Assembly (NCBI GenBank): GCA_012517315.1
Contig: JAAYVE010000024.1
Location: 186,001-250,000, forward strand
Origin: Deltaproteobacteria bacterium
GTDB taxonomy: Bacteria; Desulfobacterota; Syntrophobacteria; Syntrophobacterales; Syntrophobacteraceae
Length of the DNA: 64,000 nt
Direction: 5' to 3'
How positions within the stretch are numbered: the stretch's first letter is position 1; each line of letters starts with the position of its first letter. Positions 8,902 through 63,581 of the stretch are shown here, piece after piece. Below the pieces are notes generated by a model that had not been told where the DNA came from, did not search any database, and saw only the letters and a program-made list of their open reading frames with translations. The translations under genes were made by a program, and so were the position numbers.

Positions 8902-9855
8902 ATGAGACAGTTCACTTTTGCTGCCGCCATTCTCGCTTTGGGATTGACCGTCTCCCAATCCTATCACCTTCAGTTGCTCACTTTCATCGGCATCCATACT
9001 CTCCTTGCCCTCGGTTTGAACATGCTGATGGGTTATGCGGGCCAAATCTCCCTAGGGCATGCAGCCTTCTACGGGCTCGGCGCCTATGGGACGGGTATCC
9101 TCACGGTGCACTGGGGTTTCTCCCCATGGGCCGGACTCCCCCTCACCCTGGCGTTGACCTTCGTGGTGGCGTTTCTGGTGGCCTTGCCCATGTTGAAGCT
9201 CTCGGGATACTATCTTGGCATGGGGACGCTGGGCTTCGGGATGATAGCCTTCGTCGTTTTTAGGGAATGGAGTTCCCTCACCGGGGGCGACTCAGGGCTG
9301 GTGGGGATTCCTGCACTGGATGTGGGAGGGGTATCCCTGTCATCCGGCAAGGCGGGGTACTTTCTGGTGTGGGCGTGTGTGCTGCTGGCTTTCTTTGCAT
9401 GCGAGCGGGTGGTGGATTCCCGCGTGGGAAGGGCGTTGCGGGCGATCCACGACAGTGAGAGGGCTGCCGCGGCAATGGGAATCGATACCAGCCGTTTGAA
9501 AGTATGGGTTTTCGTCTTCAGCGCCCTGCTTGCGTCCCTCGCCGGTTTCCTCTATGCCCACCTAGTCACTTTCATCAGTCCAAATTCATTCGATTTTCTG
9601 GTTTCCGTGCGGATCGTCACCATGGTGGTCATCGGGGGAATGGCGAGCATCTGGGGGTCTCTTCTGGGGGCAGCGGTCCTCACAATCCTTCCCGAATGGC
9701 TGCATGTGTTCACCGATTATGAGATGGTGGTGTACGGTCTCATTCTCATGACGATCATGATTTTTCTTCCCCAAGGCCTGACGCGAGGGATACTGGATAT
9801 CCATGAGCGATCCAAGCGAAAAGACACCGCCGCCTCCAGTGCTCCTCGGAGTTGA
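8902..9855 (+). CDS. livM: branched-chain amino acid ABC transporter permease LivM
   Basis: A 317-residue inner-membrane permease, partner of LivH. Family signatures are NMLMGYAGQISLGHAAFYGLGAY near residue 45 and the later GRALRAIHDSERAAAAMGI coupling helix. The start at 8902 has GGAGG a few bases upstream; the frame is open further 5', but that stretch lies inside livH. Its last 53 bases overlap livG, so the two are likely translationally coupled. Confidence 0.9.
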   Translation: MRQFTFAAAILALGLTVSQSYHLQLLTFIGIHTLLALGLNMLMGYAGQISLGHAAFYGLGAYGTGILTVHWGFSPWAGLPLTLALTFVVAFLVALPMLKLSGYYLGMGTLGFGMIAFVVFREWSSLTGGDSGLVGIPALDVGGVSLSSGKAGYFLVWACVLLAFFACERVVDSRVGRALRAIHDSERAAAAMGIDTSRLKVWVFVFSALLASLAGFLYAHLVTFISPNSFDFLVSVRIVTMVVIGGMASIWGSLLGAAVLTILPEWLHVFTDYEMVVYGLILMTIMIFLPQGLTRGILDIHERSKRKDTAASSAPRS

Positions 9856-10597
9856 GAGCGTTTCCAGGTCCTTCGGGGGCATTCAGGCCCTCTGGCAGGT
9901 CTCCCTCCAGGTACGGCCAGGGACCATCCACTCCGTGATCGGCCCCAACGGCGCGGGAAAAACCACTCTTTTCAACGTCATCACCGGGGCCTACAAACCG
10001 GATTCAGGGCGGATCCTGTACCGGGGAGAGGAGGTGCAGGGCCGAAAGGTCCACGAACTGGTGCGACTCGGAATGGCCCGCACCTTTCAGAATGTGGAGC
10101 TTTTCGGGAGCATGAGCGTCCTGGAAAACGTCCTGGTGGGACAACACGTGCGCACACGCTGTGGTTTCCTCGGGGCCGTAGGGCGCTGGCCCTGGGTGAA
10201 GCGGGAAGAGGCGGAGGCCCGGCGCAAGGGTATGGAATTGCTCGAGTTCGTCGGCCTGGAGGAGTTTGCGTCCCAGAGGAGCGAAGACCTCCCTTTCGGT
10301 TGGCAGCGTTTCCTGGAGATAGCCCGGGCTCTTGCAACCGCTCCGCGCCTTCTCCTGCTAGATGAGCCGGCCTCGGGGCTCAATGCCGTTGAGACGGAAC
10401 GCCTGGGGGATCTGCTTGAAAGGATCCGAAAGGAGGGGATCACCCTCATCTTGGTCGAACACGACATGAGCCTCACTATGGGCATATCCGACGCCATTCT
10501 TGTCCTGCACCAGGGGAAGAAGCTCGCGGAGGGAACTCCCCGGGAAATCCAGTCCAATGATGCCGTGATTGCCGCCTACCTCGGTTCGGAGCGATGA
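9803..10597 (+). CDS. livG: branched-chain amino acid ABC transporter ATP-binding protein LivG
   Basis: A 264-residue ABC ATPase. Walker A is GPNGAGKTTLFN near residue 50, Walker B is LLLLDEPASGLN near 190, and the switch histidine is in LVEHDMS. The helical part has MARTFQNVELF, typical of LivG. The usual LSGGQ signature is replaced by DLPFGWQR (near residue 155), a variant also seen in some LivG proteins. It couples ATP hydrolysis to LivHM at the inner membrane. The gene overlaps the end of livM by 53 bases. Confidence 0.9.
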   Translation: MSDPSEKTPPPPVLLGVESVSRSFGGIQALWQVSLQVRPGTIHSVIGPNGAGKTTLFNVITGAYKPDSGRILYRGEEVQGRKVHELVRLGMARTFQNVELFGSMSVLENVLVGQHVRTRCGFLGAVGRWPWVKREEAEARRKGMELLEFVGLEEFASQRSEDLPFGWQRFLEIARALATAPRLLLLDEPASGLNAVETERLGDLLERIRKEGITLILVEHDMSLTMGISDAILVLHQGKKLAEGTPREIQSNDAVIAAYLGSER

Positions 10598-53294: not shown

Positions 53295-54725
53295 ATGAGC
53301 TTCATCGACGAACTCCTCGAAAAGGCCTGCAGGAATATGATCGTCACGATCCTCTCCTGCCTGGACATCGCCTTCAAGGGAACCATTTACAAGATCGGGC
53401 CGATGCCGGAGTTGCGTGCGATGCGGATCACATCGGGTGTGCGGCAGCAGGGGAGCGACGTGATCCAGTGGGGGTTGCCGTCGGCATCTGATTACAACTA
53501 CCCAGGCAAGACGTGGTCCCAATATCGCGATGAACCCGGGCGGGTTCTGGAGGCGATGGGCTGGTGCGTCGAAAAACAGGTGAGTTGGACGGCGGAGAAT
53601 CCTTTCGAGGATGTACGAAGTGTTCGGAAGCAGCTCAGCGGAGAGATCGAGGATTTCTACCACATGGAGCCCGTGCTGGTGAGGAAGATGGAACTCTACG
53701 GGCACTGCCTCGAATCCCTCCAGTACCCCAAGGATTTTTGGGGAAACCCCATCTGGCAGAATTCCGACTATGTGGTGGTTGCTGTCATCAAAATCCATTT
53801 TCAGCCTTACACCATCCGCCGGGATGACCGTTCCACCCGGCTCATCAAGGAACTCTCCAGGAGCCTGGGGACGGAACTCCTGACCCTTTATCTTCGGGAA
53901 AGTCTCTACAATTCTCAGAAAGAGTTCACAAGGCAACGGCTCCAGAGTTGTGAAATCCTCGCCCATGAGTTGCGAAACGCCCTCATCAAATTCGGTTTTG
54001 TCTTTTCCGCTATCAATGCTCAGATTGCCATCCTGAGGGAAGACTGGGAAATGCAGTTGCAGCTGGCGTTTCCCCAGTTGAGATGGAAACCCGCCATCCT
54101 GTTCCGTCTCATGGAATTGCTCGATGGTCCCATTTCTCAACTTGCCGGATCGCCCGAGATTTTGCAGACGGCGAAGGCCCTTTCAATGGAACTGCACGAG
54201 CTGGCGAGGCTCCCCCTCTTGCCCTCCCAGTCGGAGCAGTGGGTGAAGAACAAGATTCTGCCCAAGTGGGAGATCCTCCTGACAACCTACGACCTCTGGG
54301 AAGGGCACAGGGAAGAGATACGCGAACTGCTGAAAGACCTGCTTCCCGCCCTGAATCTCGGTACAAATGATGAGTTGGCCGAAAAACTTGTCCAAGTCCC
54401 GCCGGACCTCCGAGAAAAGTGGATGAAGCTCGCCTACACGCATTTCACACCGGATAAGTCCCACCTTCTCAGCGAAGTCCTCGAGCTCCTGGATCATCCC
54501 CAGCTGAACATCGCTCACAGGGAGCAATTGCGTAAGGCTTTGAAATCCCTTAAGGTCTTGGTGGATGTCATCCCCGAGGTGGAAGAACGGGCGAACCGTA
54601 TCATCCTGTCCCTGCGATACGGGAGCCTGTCGGATGATGAGAGCATGGCGGCTGGATTCTCCCGGGAAGCATGTCCGGAGCTGTTCGCCGGCGAAAACGG
54701 GAAGGAATTCTCTTTCACCGACTGA
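53295..54725 (+). CDS. hypothetical protein with an orphan H-box-like motif
   Basis: A 476-residue soluble protein. The middle carries SCEILAHELRNALIKFG with H224, very close to the phosphorylated H-box of histidine kinases, set within a long helical region (about 205-250). No ATP-binding (N, G1, G2) boxes follow; the rest is helical and Leu-rich. The N-terminal 200 residues are alpha/beta and unrecognised. It might be a phosphotransfer or kinase-like scaffold protein that depends on another kinase. It stands alone ahead of ilvA. No signal peptide was seen. Confidence 0.65.
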   Translation: MSFIDELLEKACRNMIVTILSCLDIAFKGTIYKIGPMPELRAMRITSGVRQQGSDVIQWGLPSASDYNYPGKTWSQYRDEPGRVLEAMGWCVEKQVSWTAENPFEDVRSVRKQLSGEIEDFYHMEPVLVRKMELYGHCLESLQYPKDFWGNPIWQNSDYVVVAVIKIHFQPYTIRRDDRSTRLIKELSRSLGTELLTLYLRESLYNSQKEFTRQRLQSCEILAHELRNALIKFGFVFSAINAQIAILREDWEMQLQLAFPQLRWKPAILFRLMELLDGPISQLAGSPEILQTAKALSMELHELARLPLLPSQSEQWVKNKILPKWEILLTTYDLWEGHREEIRELLKDLLPALNLGTNDELAEKLVQVPPDLREKWMKLAYTHFTPDKSHLLSEVLELLDHPQLNIAHREQLRKALKSLKVLVDVIPEVEERANRIILSLRYGSLSDDESMAAGFSREACPELFAGENGKEFSFTD

Positions 54726-58206: not shown

Positions 58207-59472
58207 TCACGCGTCGTCGGGGGTGCTCCCCCCCAGCCTCCAGGGAAACCTCTCGCTGTAGAAGATGCTCTTCGTTTTTCGGCCTTCAAGGATTCTTCGA
58301 AACGCTTCCAGCATGAAGCCGGCGATGATCTGATTGGTGATGATGACCGAAGGTTCCGGTTGAGCGTTGCAGGAAGTGGCCGGTTCACGGGGAGAACCGG
58401 ATCTTCGGCTGTTCACGATGGCATGAAGACCGAGTGCTTCCGCAGGTGTTCGGGTGTCCCTGGCGGGGACATAAGAGACCACCTGCCCTGAATCCATCCC
58501 GGTTCCCCCACTGATGAGCACCTTGCGTTCCACCCTGCAGCGCTCGCTCAAAAGCAGCCGGGTCTCAAAATTGTCCACGCAGTCGAACACCGTGTGATAA
58601 GCGGTCAATTCGGTTTTTTCGCCGCAGGTTTCCTGCAATGCGTGCGTTTCTGTGCCGTAAAGGGCGGTTAGCCTGGAGGCCAGGATGTGCGCCTTGCTCA
58701 AGCCCACTGCGTCGTAAAAGAGCACCTGCCGATTGAGATTGGTGACCTCCACCATATCGGGGTCCATGACACTGATGGGCTGAAAACCCATGTGTGCAAG
58801 GCCCATGGCGACGAAAGTCCCCAGCGCTCCTGCACCCACGATGCACAGGGGAAGGCGCCTCCCCCGAAGGGGAAGCGGTTTGCGGCAGTACGCGACCATT
58901 TCCTCGGAAACAGGCCTCCCCATGAGGAGGTTCTTCACCTCCTGGAGCACCAGCCCGGCAACGATCATGTCCAGGACGAAGTCATCCCCGTGGGAGGCGG
59001 GAAGGTCCGGCGAAGAGACCATCTGCCCCAGTTCCTCCCATTCACGCCCTCTGTAGTAGGTGAACACTTTGAACCCCTCCCGGCTTCTTTCGCGGAATGC
59101 GAGGCCGCGAACCAGCGGGACCCCGTCCCGGTGGGACTTGTCCAGGAGGAGCTTCTGCGCGAGGCCGAAACGGGAGAGATCCACCACCACCCTGCACCCG
59201 TCCAACAGGTCCTCCAGGATCCCGTGGGTGTACAGGCCCTCCAGTAAAACCAGGTGAAGTTCGGGATTCAGCCTGCGGGCGGCTTGGACCAGTTTTTCGT
59301 CCAACCTGGGGGCGATGCACAGGAACTGCTGGATCCCGAGGGCGCTTGCCGACAAAAGAAAAAGAGAGGCCAGTTGGTCATCGTCCCCCACGACCCCGAC
59401 GCGGGCCCGGGCCAAAGCCTCCTGGTTCCAGCCCGTTGAGCGGATCTGCCTGTCGAAACGTTCCGGGATCAT
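58207..59472 (-). CDS. E1-like ThiF-family enzyme with degenerate and intact domains
   Basis: A 421-residue protein. The N-terminal half opens like ThiF (FDRQIRSTGWNQEALARARVGVVG, 6-29), but the dinucleotide loop is lost (GVVGDDDQLAS). The second half is an intact adenylation domain: IVGAGALGTF (211-220), DPDMVEVTNLNRQVLF, and DCVDNFETR (297-305). Cys368 in ATSCNAQPEPS stands where many E1 and ThiF proteins have a conserved Cys. It would adenylate the C-terminal glycine of a ubiquitin-like protein. Degenerate plus intact ThiF halves recall the two-lobed eukaryotic E1. GGAGG precedes the start. Last gene of the operon, 42 bases after the JAB gene. Confidence 0.85.
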   Translation of the reverse strand: MIPERFDRQIRSTGWNQEALARARVGVVGDDDQLASLFLLSASALGIQQFLCIAPRLDEKLVQAARRLNPELHLVLLEGLYTHGILEDLLDGCRVVVDLSRFGLAQKLLLDKSHRDGVPLVRGLAFRERSREGFKVFTYYRGREWEELGQMVSSPDLPASHGDDFVLDMIVAGLVLQEVKNLLMGRPVSEEMVAYCRKPLPLRGRRLPLCIVGAGALGTFVAMGLAHMGFQPISVMDPDMVEVTNLNRQVLFYDAVGLSKAHILASRLTALYGTETHALQETCGEKTELTAYHTVFDCVDNFETRLLLSERCRVERKVLISGGTGMDSGQVVSYVPARDTRTPAEALGLHAIVNSRRSGSPREPATSCNAQPEPSVIITNQIIAGFMLEAFRRILEGRKTKSIFYSERFPWRLGGSTPDDA

Positions 59473-59514
59473 TTCGCTGCCTCCAAGAAAGGGCCGCTGT
59501 GGGCTTTCAGATGG

Positions 59515-60312
59515 TCATGCCCGTTCCAGCTTGGGAGACTCGTGAGTCAAAGGCTTGATCTTTGCCCTCACCTCCCGGGCGAGGGTCTGCAGGGCCTCGG
59601 GACCGAGAGGTCCCCCGTCCCCCGTTATCAGGAGACGGGCCCGCTTCCGACTAAAGGCTGTGTGTCCCGACAGGATCCCTCTTTCCTTGTAGACGATTTC
59701 CTGGGCGTGCCAGCCTTCGTCGCCGATGACCAGGCAGTGACAGAACCCGCCGTAAACGGTTTCGAGGATTCGAGCGCGCGTGACGGGGGCATCGGTGACG
59801 ATGGCGATACTGCCCTCCACGAGATCCTGGTCGGTGTGGCGCCCCTCTACCAGGAGCAAAAGGTCATCGACGAAGATTTCCCGCTTGGCCACGGAGATTT
59901 TGAGGCGGGAAAAAACAAAGTCCAACATTCTCATGCTGTTTTGGTCATCCGTGGAGGAGAAGGAATGAAAGGGAAGGTTCCCATGGGAATGGACCCACCC
60001 GTTGATCACCTCCTCCCGGCGGAGGGATTCCTGATAGACCTGGATGCTCACAGGGTCAAGTGCCGTGTAGTCGATCCTGTTTTTGTCGTTCTCCGGGATG
60101 CCGATGTCCACGATGACGTCGACTCGCTCCTTTCGGGCGATGGTATACCCATACCATTCAAAACTGTCCCCGTGAATGGACCGGACCAGGCGGTTGACGG
60201 CGAACGCCTTTTCCATCGCAAACCGGGTCATGAGGATGTCCCGCGGGAGGGTGCCGAGGGACACCTGAAAGGGTTCGGGGCGTTTAAGGACGTCCAGGTT
60301 CCTGAATCTCAT
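59515..60312 (-). CDS. JAB/JAMM metallopeptidase
   Basis: A 265-residue protein with a JAMM-type zinc motif: a Glu near residue 52 (FEWYGY), and WVHSHG with His108 and His110 followed by Ser119 and Asp122. The gap between the second His and Ser is eight residues instead of the usual seven. JAMM enzymes cut isopeptide bonds at the C-terminus of ubiquitin-like proteins or mature their precursors. The start (ATG at 60312) overlaps the ClpX-like stop in an ATGA, so the two are coupled. The C-terminal half (about 130-265) is alpha/beta and unassigned. Confidence 0.82.
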   Translation of the reverse strand: MRFRNLDVLKRPEPFQVSLGTLPRDILMTRFAMEKAFAVNRLVRSIHGDSFEWYGYTIARKERVDVIVDIGIPENDKNRIDYTALDPVSIQVYQESLRREEVINGWVHSHGNLPFHSFSSTDDQNSMRMLDFVFSRLKISVAKREIFVDDLLLLVEGRHTDQDLVEGSIAIVTDAPVTRARILETVYGGFCHCLVIGDEGWHAQEIVYKERGILSGHTAFSRKRARLLITGDGGPLGPEALQTLAREVRAKIKPLTHESPKLERA

Positions 60313-61412
60313 GAAAGCCGTTCCCTCACTGTGGCCAGGTCCACTGTGAACTCTCCCTGAAAGGATCCCGGCAGCCGGAACATGTCCTCCAGGAGGATTC
60401 GATGGAGAATGCCGGTGAGTCCCCGGGCGCCGGTTCCTTCCTCTTCCGCGCGCCGGGCCACTTCCTCCAAGGCTTCGTCTGTGACCACCAGGTCTATCCC
60501 CCACGCCTTCAGGTCATGGGTGTAAGCCTTCAGGGGACTGTCCTCGCTGGCTGTCATGATCTTCTTGAGATCGTGTGTGGACAGGGGATCGTAAACTACC
60601 CTCACGGGAAACCTGCCCATGAGCTGCCGTTCCATGCCCAGTTCCACAAGGTCGTCCGTGAGAAGGAAGCCGCGCCATTCCCCTTTGAGGTGATTCCTGG
60701 CCATCCTCCGGGTGACCACATGCTCCAGCTTCTCAAATACTCCCCCGGCGATGAAAAGGACGTGGCGGGTGGATACCGTAACCCGCTCGCGGCCCACCTC
60801 GACGGTGTTTTCCACGCCTTCGGCCATCCTGAGAAGTCCCTTCTGCACGCCTCTGCCGGAGACATCCTTGTACGTCCCCGGCTCGGCGGCCAGCTTATCC
60901 AGTTCGTCCAGGTAGACGATCCCCATCTGTGCGATGTGCGGGTTTCCATCGGCGGCGATGAGCAGGTCTGCGAGAATGTCGCTGGTGTTCTGACCGACGT
61001 AGCCCACTTCGCTGAACTTGGTGAGATCCTCCACCAGGAAAGGCACCCCGACCAACCGGGATGCACTCTCGCCGCTGTACGTCTTGCCGCAGCCGGTGGG
61101 ACCGATGAGCAGGATGTTCGCCTTGGGGGTCCTCGTTCTGCGCAGGGCCGACTCCATATCCCCCCGGTCCCGGGTGAGGGTGTTTTGAAGGGCCTTGGAC
61201 AGGCGCCGGTAATGGAAGGCAATGGCGGTGGCGATGGTCTTCTTGCCTTGCTCCTGGCCGATGACAAAGCGGTCCAGTTCTTTCTTGAGTTCTGCGGGCG
61301 TGCGGTTGAATTCCAGGATGTGCCGAACCGTTTCCGCTGTCTGATGGGCCCTCAGCTGCCCCAGTCTCTCCTGCACCCGCTCCCGCCTGTATTCGGACAT
61401 CCTGTCAAGCAT
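60309..61412 (-). CDS. ClpX-like AAA+ unfoldase without zinc domain and docking loop
   Basis: A 367-residue AAA+ ATPase close to ClpX. Walker A is GPTGCGKT (104-111), the pore loop GYVG is at 137-140, Walker B is IVYLDELDK (165-173), and IAGGVFEKLEHVV, LMGRFPVRV and ARGLTGILHRILLEDMF (the sensor 2 region) follow. The zinc-binding N-domain of ClpX is missing, and the segment that in ClpX carries the IGF loop for ClpP is short (RMARNHLKGEWRGFLL) and has no IGF. It therefore probably unfolds proteins without docking ClpP in the usual way. The start (MLDRMSEY) follows AAGGGAG; a frame start at 61445 is less likely. Confidence 0.87.
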   Translation of the reverse strand: MLDRMSEYRRERVQERLGQLRAHQTAETVRHILEFNRTPAELKKELDRFVIGQEQGKKTIATAIAFHYRRLSKALQNTLTRDRGDMESALRRTRTPKANILLIGPTGCGKTYSGESASRLVGVPFLVEDLTKFSEVGYVGQNTSDILADLLIAADGNPHIAQMGIVYLDELDKLAAEPGTYKDVSGRGVQKGLLRMAEGVENTVEVGRERVTVSTRHVLFIAGGVFEKLEHVVTRRMARNHLKGEWRGFLLTDDLVELGMERQLMGRFPVRVVYDPLSTHDLKKIMTASEDSPLKAYTHDLKAWGIDLVVTDEALEEVARRAEEEGTGARGLTGILHRILLEDMFRLPGSFQGEFTVDLATVRERLS

Positions 61413-61564
61413 TGCCGCTCCCTTTTCCTCCCGCGCTTTCCCCATTCCATGGCGCTTCCACAGGCGCTGTCACCCTGTGAGGCCGTCTTGGACGGTTTCC
61501 CTCTACCCCGCCCTACGTCGGCTTGCTGGGAAAGGGGTCCCGCAGGCCGAATCCCGCCCGGACA

Positions 61565-62005
61565 CTAGGCCGTCGGAGGCTGAGTCCCCCGGCGTTGGAG
61601 TTCCTGCGTAAGGAGGTACATGAAATGATGATTCAGGAGGCGCTCGGCGTCGAGGGAAGGGTTCAGGGTGAAAAGAGGATTGCACGCGAGGATTTCGTCG
61701 GGTGAGCGGGCGAACTGAAGGTAGGGGTTCCTGATGCGCTGCAGGATGGCTTCGGCGATTCGGTATTCCCTCTCCGTCACGAGGGCGAAAAGAGCATGGG
61801 CGCGAGGCGGTTTGAAAAGGGATTCCTTCGTCGGGAACAGGGAGGTTGTGGGGAGACCGGCCAAGTTGTCCAGTTTTCGTGGGAAATTCTGGTCCAGACC
61901 ATAACGCTGAACAATTCCCGCAACTATAGTGAACAGGGACGGGACGAACGGTCTCCTGAATTTCTTTCCAGCTCTCTCCCTTTTGATTTGATCCGTGAGA
62001 CCCAT
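61565..62005 (-). CDS. hypothetical protein in the ubiquitin-like operon
   Basis: A 146-residue soluble, mainly helical protein that I do not recognise. It begins two bases after the stop of the upstream gene, so it is translated from the same message. The C-terminal part (about 75-140) has AHALFALVTEREYRIAEAILQRIRNPYLQFARSPDEILACNPLF and ends with a helix LNHHFMYLLTQELQRR. One Cys. It might be an adaptor or substrate-binding subunit of the system. The gap to the next gene (ClpX-like) is 152 bases. Confidence 0.7.
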   Translation of the reverse strand: MGLTDQIKRERAGKKFRRPFVPSLFTIVAGIVQRYGLDQNFPRKLDNLAGLPTTSLFPTKESLFKPPRAHALFALVTEREYRIAEAILQRIRNPYLQFARSPDEILACNPLFTLNPSLDAERLLNHHFMYLLTQELQRRGTQPPTA

Positions 62006-62007
62006 GG

Positions 62008-63180
62008 CTATCTAAAAAGGTTCTTGATTTCAACCCTTCCCGACCGGATGTCCGGGTGATCCCGGTCGATCCGCAGGTCTTCGAATCGAATAGTGCGCTC
62101 GTACGGTGTCAGGGGATCCAGACTGTGGTAGCCGTTTCGGCGGCGGCGGTCGTAGCCGTGGAAAAGGGCGTTGATTCCCCCCTCAATGCCGCCGATGACG
62201 GCGCCGGCCGAGAATTCACCGTTCCAGCGGCCGGAATCCTGAAAACAGATGGGCTGTCCCCGTCCGTCGGATTCCAGGAAAGGATGTCTGTATCGATCCA
62301 GGACGAAAGGCCTCGGCGGTCCCCATGTGGTGACCGCGACTCTGCAGTCGGGGAATCGATAGACGCGCCCGTAAAAGTCTTGAAGAGCATAGTCGCCGGT
62401 GTGCACGTAGACGATGAACTCATCTGCGGATCCATGGCGGTAAAACCCGAAGCCGTCCATTTCCAGGGCGCCTCGCTGGCAGAGAAAGGCGAGGACCGCA
62501 CGGTGCCCGTCATTCATCCAGGGATGCCTCCCCATGTCCGCCATGACACTTTTCATCCTGGAAAGTTCGTCGTCCAAGAACCCGAGACGGACGGCCTCAA
62601 GCAACCATCCCTTGAGTTCGCGGGCGGCAATGGGTTCGTCTGCGGGAGGACGCAACACTTCGATTCTGCGGCGTGTCTCCTCTCGTACCTGTGTCAAGGC
62701 GTCCACCACTGTTTGGCCACCGGTGTCGCCCGGAAACGACTCAGGAATGTCGAAGCGTCGCCGGATCTCTTCGAGAATATCCTTCCCCGTCGGTCTTCCG
62801 CCGCCCTCACGGGTTCTGCGCCGGACGAAGTGAGGCATGACCTCGAGCACGAGGGTCGTCAATTTGCTGCCGGGGGACACGCCGCAAAAGGCGGTTCGCG
62901 ACGGCGTTGCCGGCAGTTCCCCTGGAATGGGAGCGGCATCGTCAGGCTGAAGCATGCCCAGGCAGTTCACAAGACCGTCCACTTTCAGGCTTCGGACGTA
63001 GAGCTCCCCCCTCACCCGAAGGAGCGGCCCCCTTTCCGTCCCCCCTGCGTTCCCCGGAACTGCTCTTGCGCCCCCAGCAAGCTCCGTTTCCCCTTTGACG
63101 GATGGATCCATGAGGAGCGGCAGGTAAAGGAAACCGCCGTGCACCACAACCCTCAGTTGCGAATCGAGCAGACCGATCAA
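62008..63180 (-). CDS. protein with E2-like C-terminal domain
   Basis: A 390-residue protein. The C-terminal part (about 240-345) resembles ubiquitin-conjugating folds: strands with FIVYVH and RVAVTTWGPPRP, then HP at 299-300, GQPICFQ with Cys312 (catalytic candidate), Trp319 and a helix. HP, then G-x-C, then Trp is the core order of E2 enzymes. The N-terminal 180 residues are unassigned. The TTG start at 63180 overlaps the stop of the preceding gene (TTGA) and has a G-rich stretch upstream; the frame stays open to 63402. The E2 assignment is a hypothesis. Confidence 0.65.
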   Translation of the reverse strand: MIGLLDSQLRVVVHGGFLYLPLLMDPSVKGETELAGGARAVPGNAGGTERGPLLRVRGELYVRSLKVDGLVNCLGMLQPDDAAPIPGELPATPSRTAFCGVSPGSKLTTLVLEVMPHFVRRRTREGGGRPTGKDILEEIRRRFDIPESFPGDTGGQTVVDALTQVREETRRRIEVLRPPADEPIAARELKGWLLEAVRLGFLDDELSRMKSVMADMGRHPWMNDGHRAVLAFLCQRGALEMDGFGFYRHGSADEFIVYVHTGDYALQDFYGRVYRFPDCRVAVTTWGPPRPFVLDRYRHPFLESDGRGQPICFQDSGRWNGEFSAGAVIGGIEGGINALFHGYDRRRRNGYHSLDPLTPYERTIRFEDLRIDRDHPDIRSGRVEIKNLFR

Positions 63181-63581
63181 TGGGATGCCCCCGGGCAGGC
63201 TTGGCGGTCCATGGGCGATCCGCCCTCCTGTGGCCTGATGACGCGCACGGGCACATACCAGTATCTTTCGCCCGACTCCGTCTCTTCCACCACCGCGAAC
63301 TGTCCGGAATCTCCGTGAATCTCCCCTCCCCGGCAGATAAACCGTCCTCCCTTCATCTGCCTGCGGATGTCGTCGAGGATTTGACGCTCCTCGATGCTCC
63401 ACCCGGTCCTTTGCAGGGTTTCCTCGACGAGCTTCGCAAGGGGTTGGCCTTCGTAGCTGCCCGGGGGATAAATGTCGATGAGTCCCTCACCCGCCTGTCC
63501 CGGCAGGATTTCCAGGACGAGGGGAAGCGCCCCTGTTTCTTTTTCGGGTTCCAGTGCTCGTTTTTGTGCAGCTTCGATCAT
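63177..63581 (-). CDS. small protein, candidate ubiquitin-like modifier
   Basis: A 134-residue protein, first gene of the operon. Residues about 20-110 could be a beta-grasp-like module: LPLVLEIL, GLIDIYPPGSYEG, a long helix LAKLVEETLQRTGWSIEERQILDDIRRQ, then RFICRGGEI and RYWYVPVRVIRP. Gly120-Gly121 (RPQEGGSPMD) lies 13 residues before the C-terminus, which would fit a precursor trimmed to GG by the JAB peptidase. This is inference only; the fold is not certain. AGGGAG stands eight bases before ATG. Ending TTGA overlap couples it to the E2-like gene. Confidence 0.5.
   Translation of the reverse strand: MIEAAQKRALEPEKETGALPLVLEILPGQAGEGLIDIYPPGSYEGQPLAKLVEETLQRTGWSIEERQILDDIRRQMKGGRFICRGGEIHGDSGQFAVVEETESGERYWYVPVRVIRPQEGGSPMDRQACPGASH

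Follow-up and report, generated by a model that had tools for sequence, protein, structure and literature searches.

A conserved operon in Desulfobacterota and DPANN archaea joins a predicted ubiquitin-like conjugation pathway to a ClpX-like unfoldase

We analysed a six-gene operon in a 64,000-nt stretch of DNA from a Deltaproteobacteria bacterium of the Syntrophobacteraceae (GCA_012517315.1, contig JAAYVE010000024.1, forward-strand positions 186,001-250,000), referred to here as the window. As judged from its gene set and the conserved features of its products, this operon probably encodes a reversible ubiquitin-like (Ubl) conjugation pathway that has its own unfolding motor and works independently of ClpP. 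An original prediction made from the window had placed a candidate modifier, an E2-like protein, a JAB peptidase, an E1 and a dedicated ClpX-like AAA+ protein in one operon, and this combination is borne out by an invariant GG tail on the modifier, the two-headed build of the E1, one invariant cysteine each in the E1 and E2-like proteins, an intact JAMM site, the missing ClpP-docking loop of the AAA+ protein and the conservation of the whole set. The six genes claimed for the minus strand between positions 58207 and 63581 are likewise all present there as open reading frames (ORFs) without interruption. The features of the operon are as follows:

63177..63581, minus strand: ubiquitin-like modifier precursor, 134 residues (family alignment, AlphaFold model, Foldseek)
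63219..63224, minus strand: codons of Gly120-Gly121, invariant in the modifier family; the 13-residue tail downstream is predicted to be trimmed off
62008..63180, minus strand: E2-like protein, 390 residues, TTG start; N-terminal domain (1-220) and putative UBC-like C-terminal domain (224-345)
62245..62247, minus strand: codon of Cys312, the predicted E2 thioester cysteine and the only invariant Cys of the family
61565..62005, minus strand: helper protein, 146 residues, kept in position at nearly all loci
60309..61445, minus strand: ClpX-like AAA+ unfoldase, 378 residues (AAA_2 and ClpX model matches)
60309..60312, minus strand: ATGA overlap of the AAA+ stop and the JAB start, seen in the sequence; a short overlap occurs at nearly all loci
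59515..60312, minus strand: JAB/JAMM metallopeptidase, 265 residues (Prok-JAB match; residues E52, H108, H110, S119, D122)
58207..59472, minus strand: double-headed E1-like enzyme, 421 residues; predicted inactive adenylation half (1-190) and active half (about 200-410)
58369..58371, minus strand: codon of Cys368, the candidate E1 catalytic cysteine and sole strictly invariant Cys in 31 rows

The tight junctions ascribed to these genes are found at three of the five boundaries: a TTGA overlap between the modifier and E2 genes (63177-63180), an ATGA overlap between the AAA+ and JAB genes (60309-60312) and a 2-bp gap between the E2 and helper genes. The other two, with gaps of 119 bp (helper to AAA+) and 42 bp (JAB to E1), are not tight. 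The AAA+ protein probably starts at the Met codon at 61412 rather than at 61445, because its relatives begin there. For the JAB gene, the listed ORF encodes 329 residues from an upstream GTG, and the start homologous to those of relatives is the ATG at 60312.

Scanning about 85,000 genomes for the E1, with confirmation by tblastn, yielded 40 loci. Profiles built by iteration from each of the window's six proteins placed all six genes side by side at 26 of these; many of the remaining loci are cut by contig ends. In a search made independently of the E1 scan, the E2 profile was run against 297 genomes belonging to the phylum and picked out 15, and those fetched include six new ones with the whole set and two in which the other five genes lie together and the E1 lies separately. 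The complete contiguous set thereby occurs in 32 genomes besides the window's, with the E1 gene either last, as in the window, or first. Hosts are mostly Desulfobacterota, joined by one Methylomirabilota metagenome-assembled genome (MAG; locus L079) and by MAGs of DPANN archaea; a member is also found in the genome of a named isolate, Desulfoferrobacter suflitae DRH4. The comparison of gene order across genomes, to which the original prediction had been tied, thus finds the set kept across two bacterial phyla and in DPANN archaea. One contig of Woesearchaeota holds the set between archaeal flanks. The DPANN MAG L080 carries the whole set on a contig that also encodes Hel308-like, Bud32-like and HemK2 proteins; contamination was considered for this contig and thought unlikely given these genes (HemK2 above the cut-off) and a G+C content of 30%. 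In the DPANN MAG L077, the set is present with a longer protein occupying the helper slot.

Where the block is incomplete, the modifier and JAB genes are located elsewhere in the genome in all six genomes tested, and one genome (G046) has two partial blocks, Ubl-AAA+-JAB and E2-helper-E1. The distance matrices of the six proteins are correlated in every pairing (r = 0.69-0.89), as expected if the genes are inherited together, with shared host ancestry also contributing. Given the contiguity in 32 other genomes, the correlated distances and the recurring overlap of the AAA+ and JAB genes, the association of the six genes is not a product of chance. The two small proteins, of 134 and 146 residues, are on their sequences real genes rather than spurious ORFs, with identities to relatives across phyla of 44-71% for the modifier (family A1, 28 rows) and 22-51% for the helper.

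Within the modifier family, P117-Q118-E119-G120-G121 is invariant. The protein stops exactly at the GG in eight members (L078, L081, L082, L111, L112, L114, L117 and L121), which represent six distinct genomes since each of the pairs L078/L121 and L081/L117 comes from one genome; most other modifiers bear variable tails of one to a few dozen residues behind the GG. At two loci (L057, 5586-6389; L116, 9802-10626), the ORF continues past QEGG into what we judged by eye to be a GNAT-like acetyltransferase domain, an arrangement resembling ubiquitin-fusion precursors. Next to the distant archaeal E2-JAB-E1 set at L086, a very divergent protein likewise ends in QEGG plus one residue. The AlphaFold model of the window's modifier is a single domain with the secondary-structure order E-E-H-H-E-E-E and a predicted local distance difference test score (pLDDT) of about 90 over residues 21-115, and its two best Foldseek matches in the PDB are Ubl3 (probability 0.92) and Smt3 (E-values 0.02-0.04). 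The model thus lends moderate support to a beta-grasp-like fold, the fold that had been proposed for this protein. The modifier, E2-like and helper proteins have no match in Pfam, NCBIfam, PADLOC or PHROG, and sequence-profile searches of the PDB with these three returned nothing relevant.

The C-terminal half of the E1 matches the ThiF domain over residues 209-398 (105 bits), and its N-terminal half is degenerate and related to MoeB (E 1.5e-7); with the whole profile, the best match in the PDB is yeast UBA1 (E 1e-19). The C-terminal half retains all residues of the ATP site, and D237, N245, R248, Q249, K260 and D300 of the adenylation site are invariant across 31 rows; among the cysteines, strict invariance is limited to Cys368. 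By its sequence, the enzyme is double-headed, with one inactive and one active adenylation half, a tandem it has in common with eukaryotic E1s and BilD (PMC11354881). Here this canonical double-headed architecture is seen in a setting other than eukaryotes and Bil.

In the E2-like family (32 rows), both H299-P300 and I311-C312 are invariant, in agreement with the HP...G-x-C motif originally noted in the C-terminus, and Cys312 is the sole invariant Cys. The His and Cys are 13 residues apart in 31 rows and 9 in the archaeal L086 protein, whose motif, HPFVSDGTIC, is tighter and more UBC-like. In the AlphaFold model, the C-terminal domain runs from a helix through strands and the HP/IC loop to a second helix. 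A helix, strands, a loop with HP and Cys, and a further helix is the order of elements in UBC domains. From motif, architecture and context, assignment of this protein as an E2 is likely. Prok-E2_B (PF14461) was not found in the window's genome, and the distant L086 E2, used by itself, retrieved nothing relevant in a sequence-profile search of the PDB. The neighbouring helper has no invariant Cys and so is not RING- or HECT-like; it is possibly an E2 adaptor or an E3-like factor.

The JAB protein matches Prok-JAB with 21.4 bits (E 2.5e-4, Pfam cut-off 25), and its JAMM residues E52, H108-S109-H110, S119 and D122 are invariant (26 rows), with a spacing one residue over the usual. Its best relative in the PDB is an archaeal Rpn11-like protein, at a weak E-value of 0.08. 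Its predicted role is both precursor processing and deconjugation. At nearly every locus measured, with start codons assigned automatically, the end of the AAA+ gene runs a few bases into the JAB gene, and the unfoldase and predicted deconjugase are therefore probably made together. We liken this pairing to that of Rpn11, which sits on the proteasomal ATPase ring.

The AAA+ protein matches AAA_2 (62 bits) and the ClpX model (254.7 bits, under the equivalog cut-off of 359). Its core belongs to the ClpX/HslU clade and is about 36% identical to the canonical ClpX of this genome, and it keeps the Walker A and B motifs, the GYVG pore loop and the sensor-2 GARG. Two features present in the genome's own ClpX are missing: the zinc-binding N-terminal domain, absent from all rows of the family alignment (A4), and the [ILV]GF ClpP-docking loop, deleted in the members inspected. 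The protein thus apparently cannot supply substrates to ClpP, the customary partner protease. We also observed a second ClpX-like paralogue in this genome, a 601-residue protein that has an IGF loop and is considerably extended at its C-terminus (G000 contig C7:13191-14219, L088).

These features bear on a degradative reading, in which the ClpX-like ATPase delivers what has been tagged to a chambered protease such as ClpP or HslV, so that the operon would be a bacterial analogue of the ubiquitin-proteasome system. The clear membership of the motor core in the ClpX/HslU clade fits this reading, and ClpP and HslV are both encoded in the genome. Each of these peptidases, however, adjoins its own partner (a separate, canonical ClpX with the docking loop beside ClpP, and HslU with HslV), the block itself has no peptidase gene, and every AAA+ member inspected is without both the loop and the zinc domain. 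We rank this reading first among the rivals, ahead of a defence system and a sulfur carrier, and regard it as unlikely.

The ThiF and MoeB matches of the E1 fit a different proposal, that the Ubl protein is a ThiS/MoaD-like thiocarboxylate carrier serving a small molecule or tRNA, with the AAA+ protein as a chaperone of an enzyme; JAB proteins accompany sulfur-carrier operons too (Iyer et al. 2006, PMC1779556). Such a carrier would not be expected to come with an invariant-Cys E2-like protein or a double-headed E1, and the block has neither a rhodanese nor a cysteine synthase gene, nor any other gene of sulfur metabolism. Pro-tails on the modifier and the coupling of JAB to the AAA+ gene also suit protein modification better. 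We consider a sulfur carrier very improbable, the least credible of the three.

Bil and CBASS also use E1, E2 and JAB proteins, and the E1 is of the BilD double type; together with the patchy occurrence of the set in the phylum (the 15 of 297 genomes above), this raises the question of an anti-phage system of the Bil or CBASS-associated type, modifying phage or host proteins with the AAA+ protein as effector or regulator. PADLOC matches, however, are limited to generic E1 and AAA domains. Clustering of neighbour genes across loci identified no universal seventh gene, the recurrent neighbours include no defence, toxin or mobile genes, and no nucleotidyltransferase stood out among them. The genes adjoining the operon in the window encode MgtE, a pyridoxal phosphate (PLP) enzyme and a major facilitator superfamily (MFS) transporter. 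Furthermore, searches of plasmids, phages and viral contigs revealed nothing related to the E2, and the E1 gave generic ThiF matches and no others. A defence role is, on this evidence, improbable, and stands behind degradation and ahead of a sulfur carrier in our ranking.

Some further genes were observed around the operon. In the window, a 476-residue ORF with no Pfam match (53295-54725) apparently also lies near the operon in a sister genome (L047:9930-11495). A gene for a metallo-beta-lactamase-fold protein recurs no more than a few kb from the operon at eight loci (L052:8564-9841, L059:2805-4067, L079:1813-3006 and five others), with tetratricopeptide (TPR) repeats in addition at L079. About 7.7 kb upstream of the operon and beyond the window, L109 has a gene (9267-10352) for a tyrosine integrase whose N-terminal domain is SAM-like. 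At three DPANN loci (L077:6808-7995, L080:6707-7912 and L086:11335-13065), long proteins of 396-577 residues occupy the helper slot or follow the E1; they contain apparently repeated beta-rich segments and have no Pfam match.

In the conjugation pathway that we favor, the JAB peptidase would trim the modifier precursor behind Gly121. The double-headed E1 would adenylate the Gly121 carboxylate and then load the modifier on Cys368, from which the E2-like protein would take it over on Cys312 and hand it on to a substrate amine, perhaps guided by the 146-residue helper. A ClpX-like hexamer would engage the tagged proteins and pull them through a pore lined by the GYVG loop, so that they are remodelled or extracted with no delivery to ClpP. 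While its target is being unfolded or afterwards, JAB, co-translated with the motor, would strip off the modifier, a task that Rpn11 performs on the proteasome. The steps through E2 loading are drawn from residue conservation; we infer the substrates, the role of the helper, the motor's use of the tag and the coupling of transfer, unfolding and removal.

Several observations weigh against this pathway. A Foldseek search of the full E2 model against the PDB and viral models gave no UBC match, though the extended, helical N-terminal half could have outweighed the rest of the model. In an hhalign comparison with six yeast UBC sequences (approximate), the E2 C-terminus aligned exactly at HP...IC, yet scored no better than column-shuffled controls. 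The Foldseek E-values of the modifier are weak, and the JAB match lies under its Pfam cut-off. The E1 has no visible ubiquitin-fold domain (UFD), its length leaving no space for a separate domain behind residue 410, and no E3 is recognizable. Finally, the evidence is wholly comparative, and co-occurrence is no proof that the AAA+ protein acts on tagged proteins.

We see about an even chance for a more novel reading: a ClpX-derived, proteolysis-independent unfoldase and a JAMM deconjugase working as a functional pair within a complete pathway of tagging, untagging and unfolding, in bacteria and DPANN archaea, as an independently evolved counterpart of ubiquitin/p97 or of Rpn11 and the base of the proteasome. 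Because the tagging, untagging and unfolding genes stay together in different phyla, DPANN archaea included, how ubiquitin-type tags came to be coupled to AAA+ motors becomes testable in a compact set.

Operons combining E1, E2, JAB and Ubl genes are already known as types 6a-6e (PMC1779556), as Bil and in Caldiarchaeum (PMC5654768). Like the window operon, BilABCD holds a Ubl, an E2, a JAB protein and an E1 with inactive and active halves in one operon (PMC11354881). In contrast, BilA has two Ubl domains and the window's modifier one in its AlphaFold model; BilB has a CEHH active site, whereas the window E2 has HP...IC and no Glu or His at those offsets behind Cys312; and the window operon adds a helper and a dedicated AAA+ unfoldase. 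In CBASS, the Cap2/Cap3 system has a fused E2-E1 beside a CD-NTase, whereas the window's E2-like and E1 proteins are separate genes.

Type 6d operons similarly carry a separate Ubl with a C-terminal Gly, a JAB protein, an E1, an E2 and an extra alpha-helical protein (PMC1779556). Their E2 differs in lacking the upstream His and using a downstream one, and no AAA+ ATPase is described for them. We take the type 6d operons to be the PRTRC cassette; no window protein reaches the cut-off of a PRTRC model (PRTRC_ThiF, 51.5 of 144.75 bits).

In Caldiarchaeum subterraneum, the JAMM protease Rpn11 cleaves pro-ubiquitin and is encoded beside an E1/E2/RING set (PMC5654768), a precedent for the pathway favored here. 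Cleavage of a Ubl precursor by a JAMM protease and the presence of E1 and E2 in the operon would be common to both. Unlike the window operon, that of Caldiarchaeum has a RING E3 and no AAA+ protein among the components described in the parts of that study consulted, and the window JAB resembles Rpn11 weakly. In the Pup/Mpa(ARC)/proteasome system, as here, bacterial tagging genes are kept together with an AAA+ unfoldase. Pup, however, is disordered, its attachment is the work of PafA and involves neither an E1 nor an E2, and Mpa belongs to another AAA clade with a 20S partner.

The word ClpX is absent from PMC1779556 and from the review PMC11354881, and we found no paper on a ClpX-like gene in an E1/E2/JAB operon in the open-access literature; older subscription-journal surveys of E1 and E2 proteins, outside that search, may hold an earlier mention. 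The statement in the original prediction that an unfoldase of this kind was not known as characterised in such an operon agrees with this result. Bacterial E1-E2-JAB systems have so far often been tied to defence or mobile elements, and none in the literature searched has a dedicated segregase. Since the descriptions compared make no mention of a ClpX-like gene, and the diagnostics tested for Bil, CBASS and PRTRC do not fit the window proteins, we regard the operon as a new variant of the bacterial ubiquitin-like conjugation operons.

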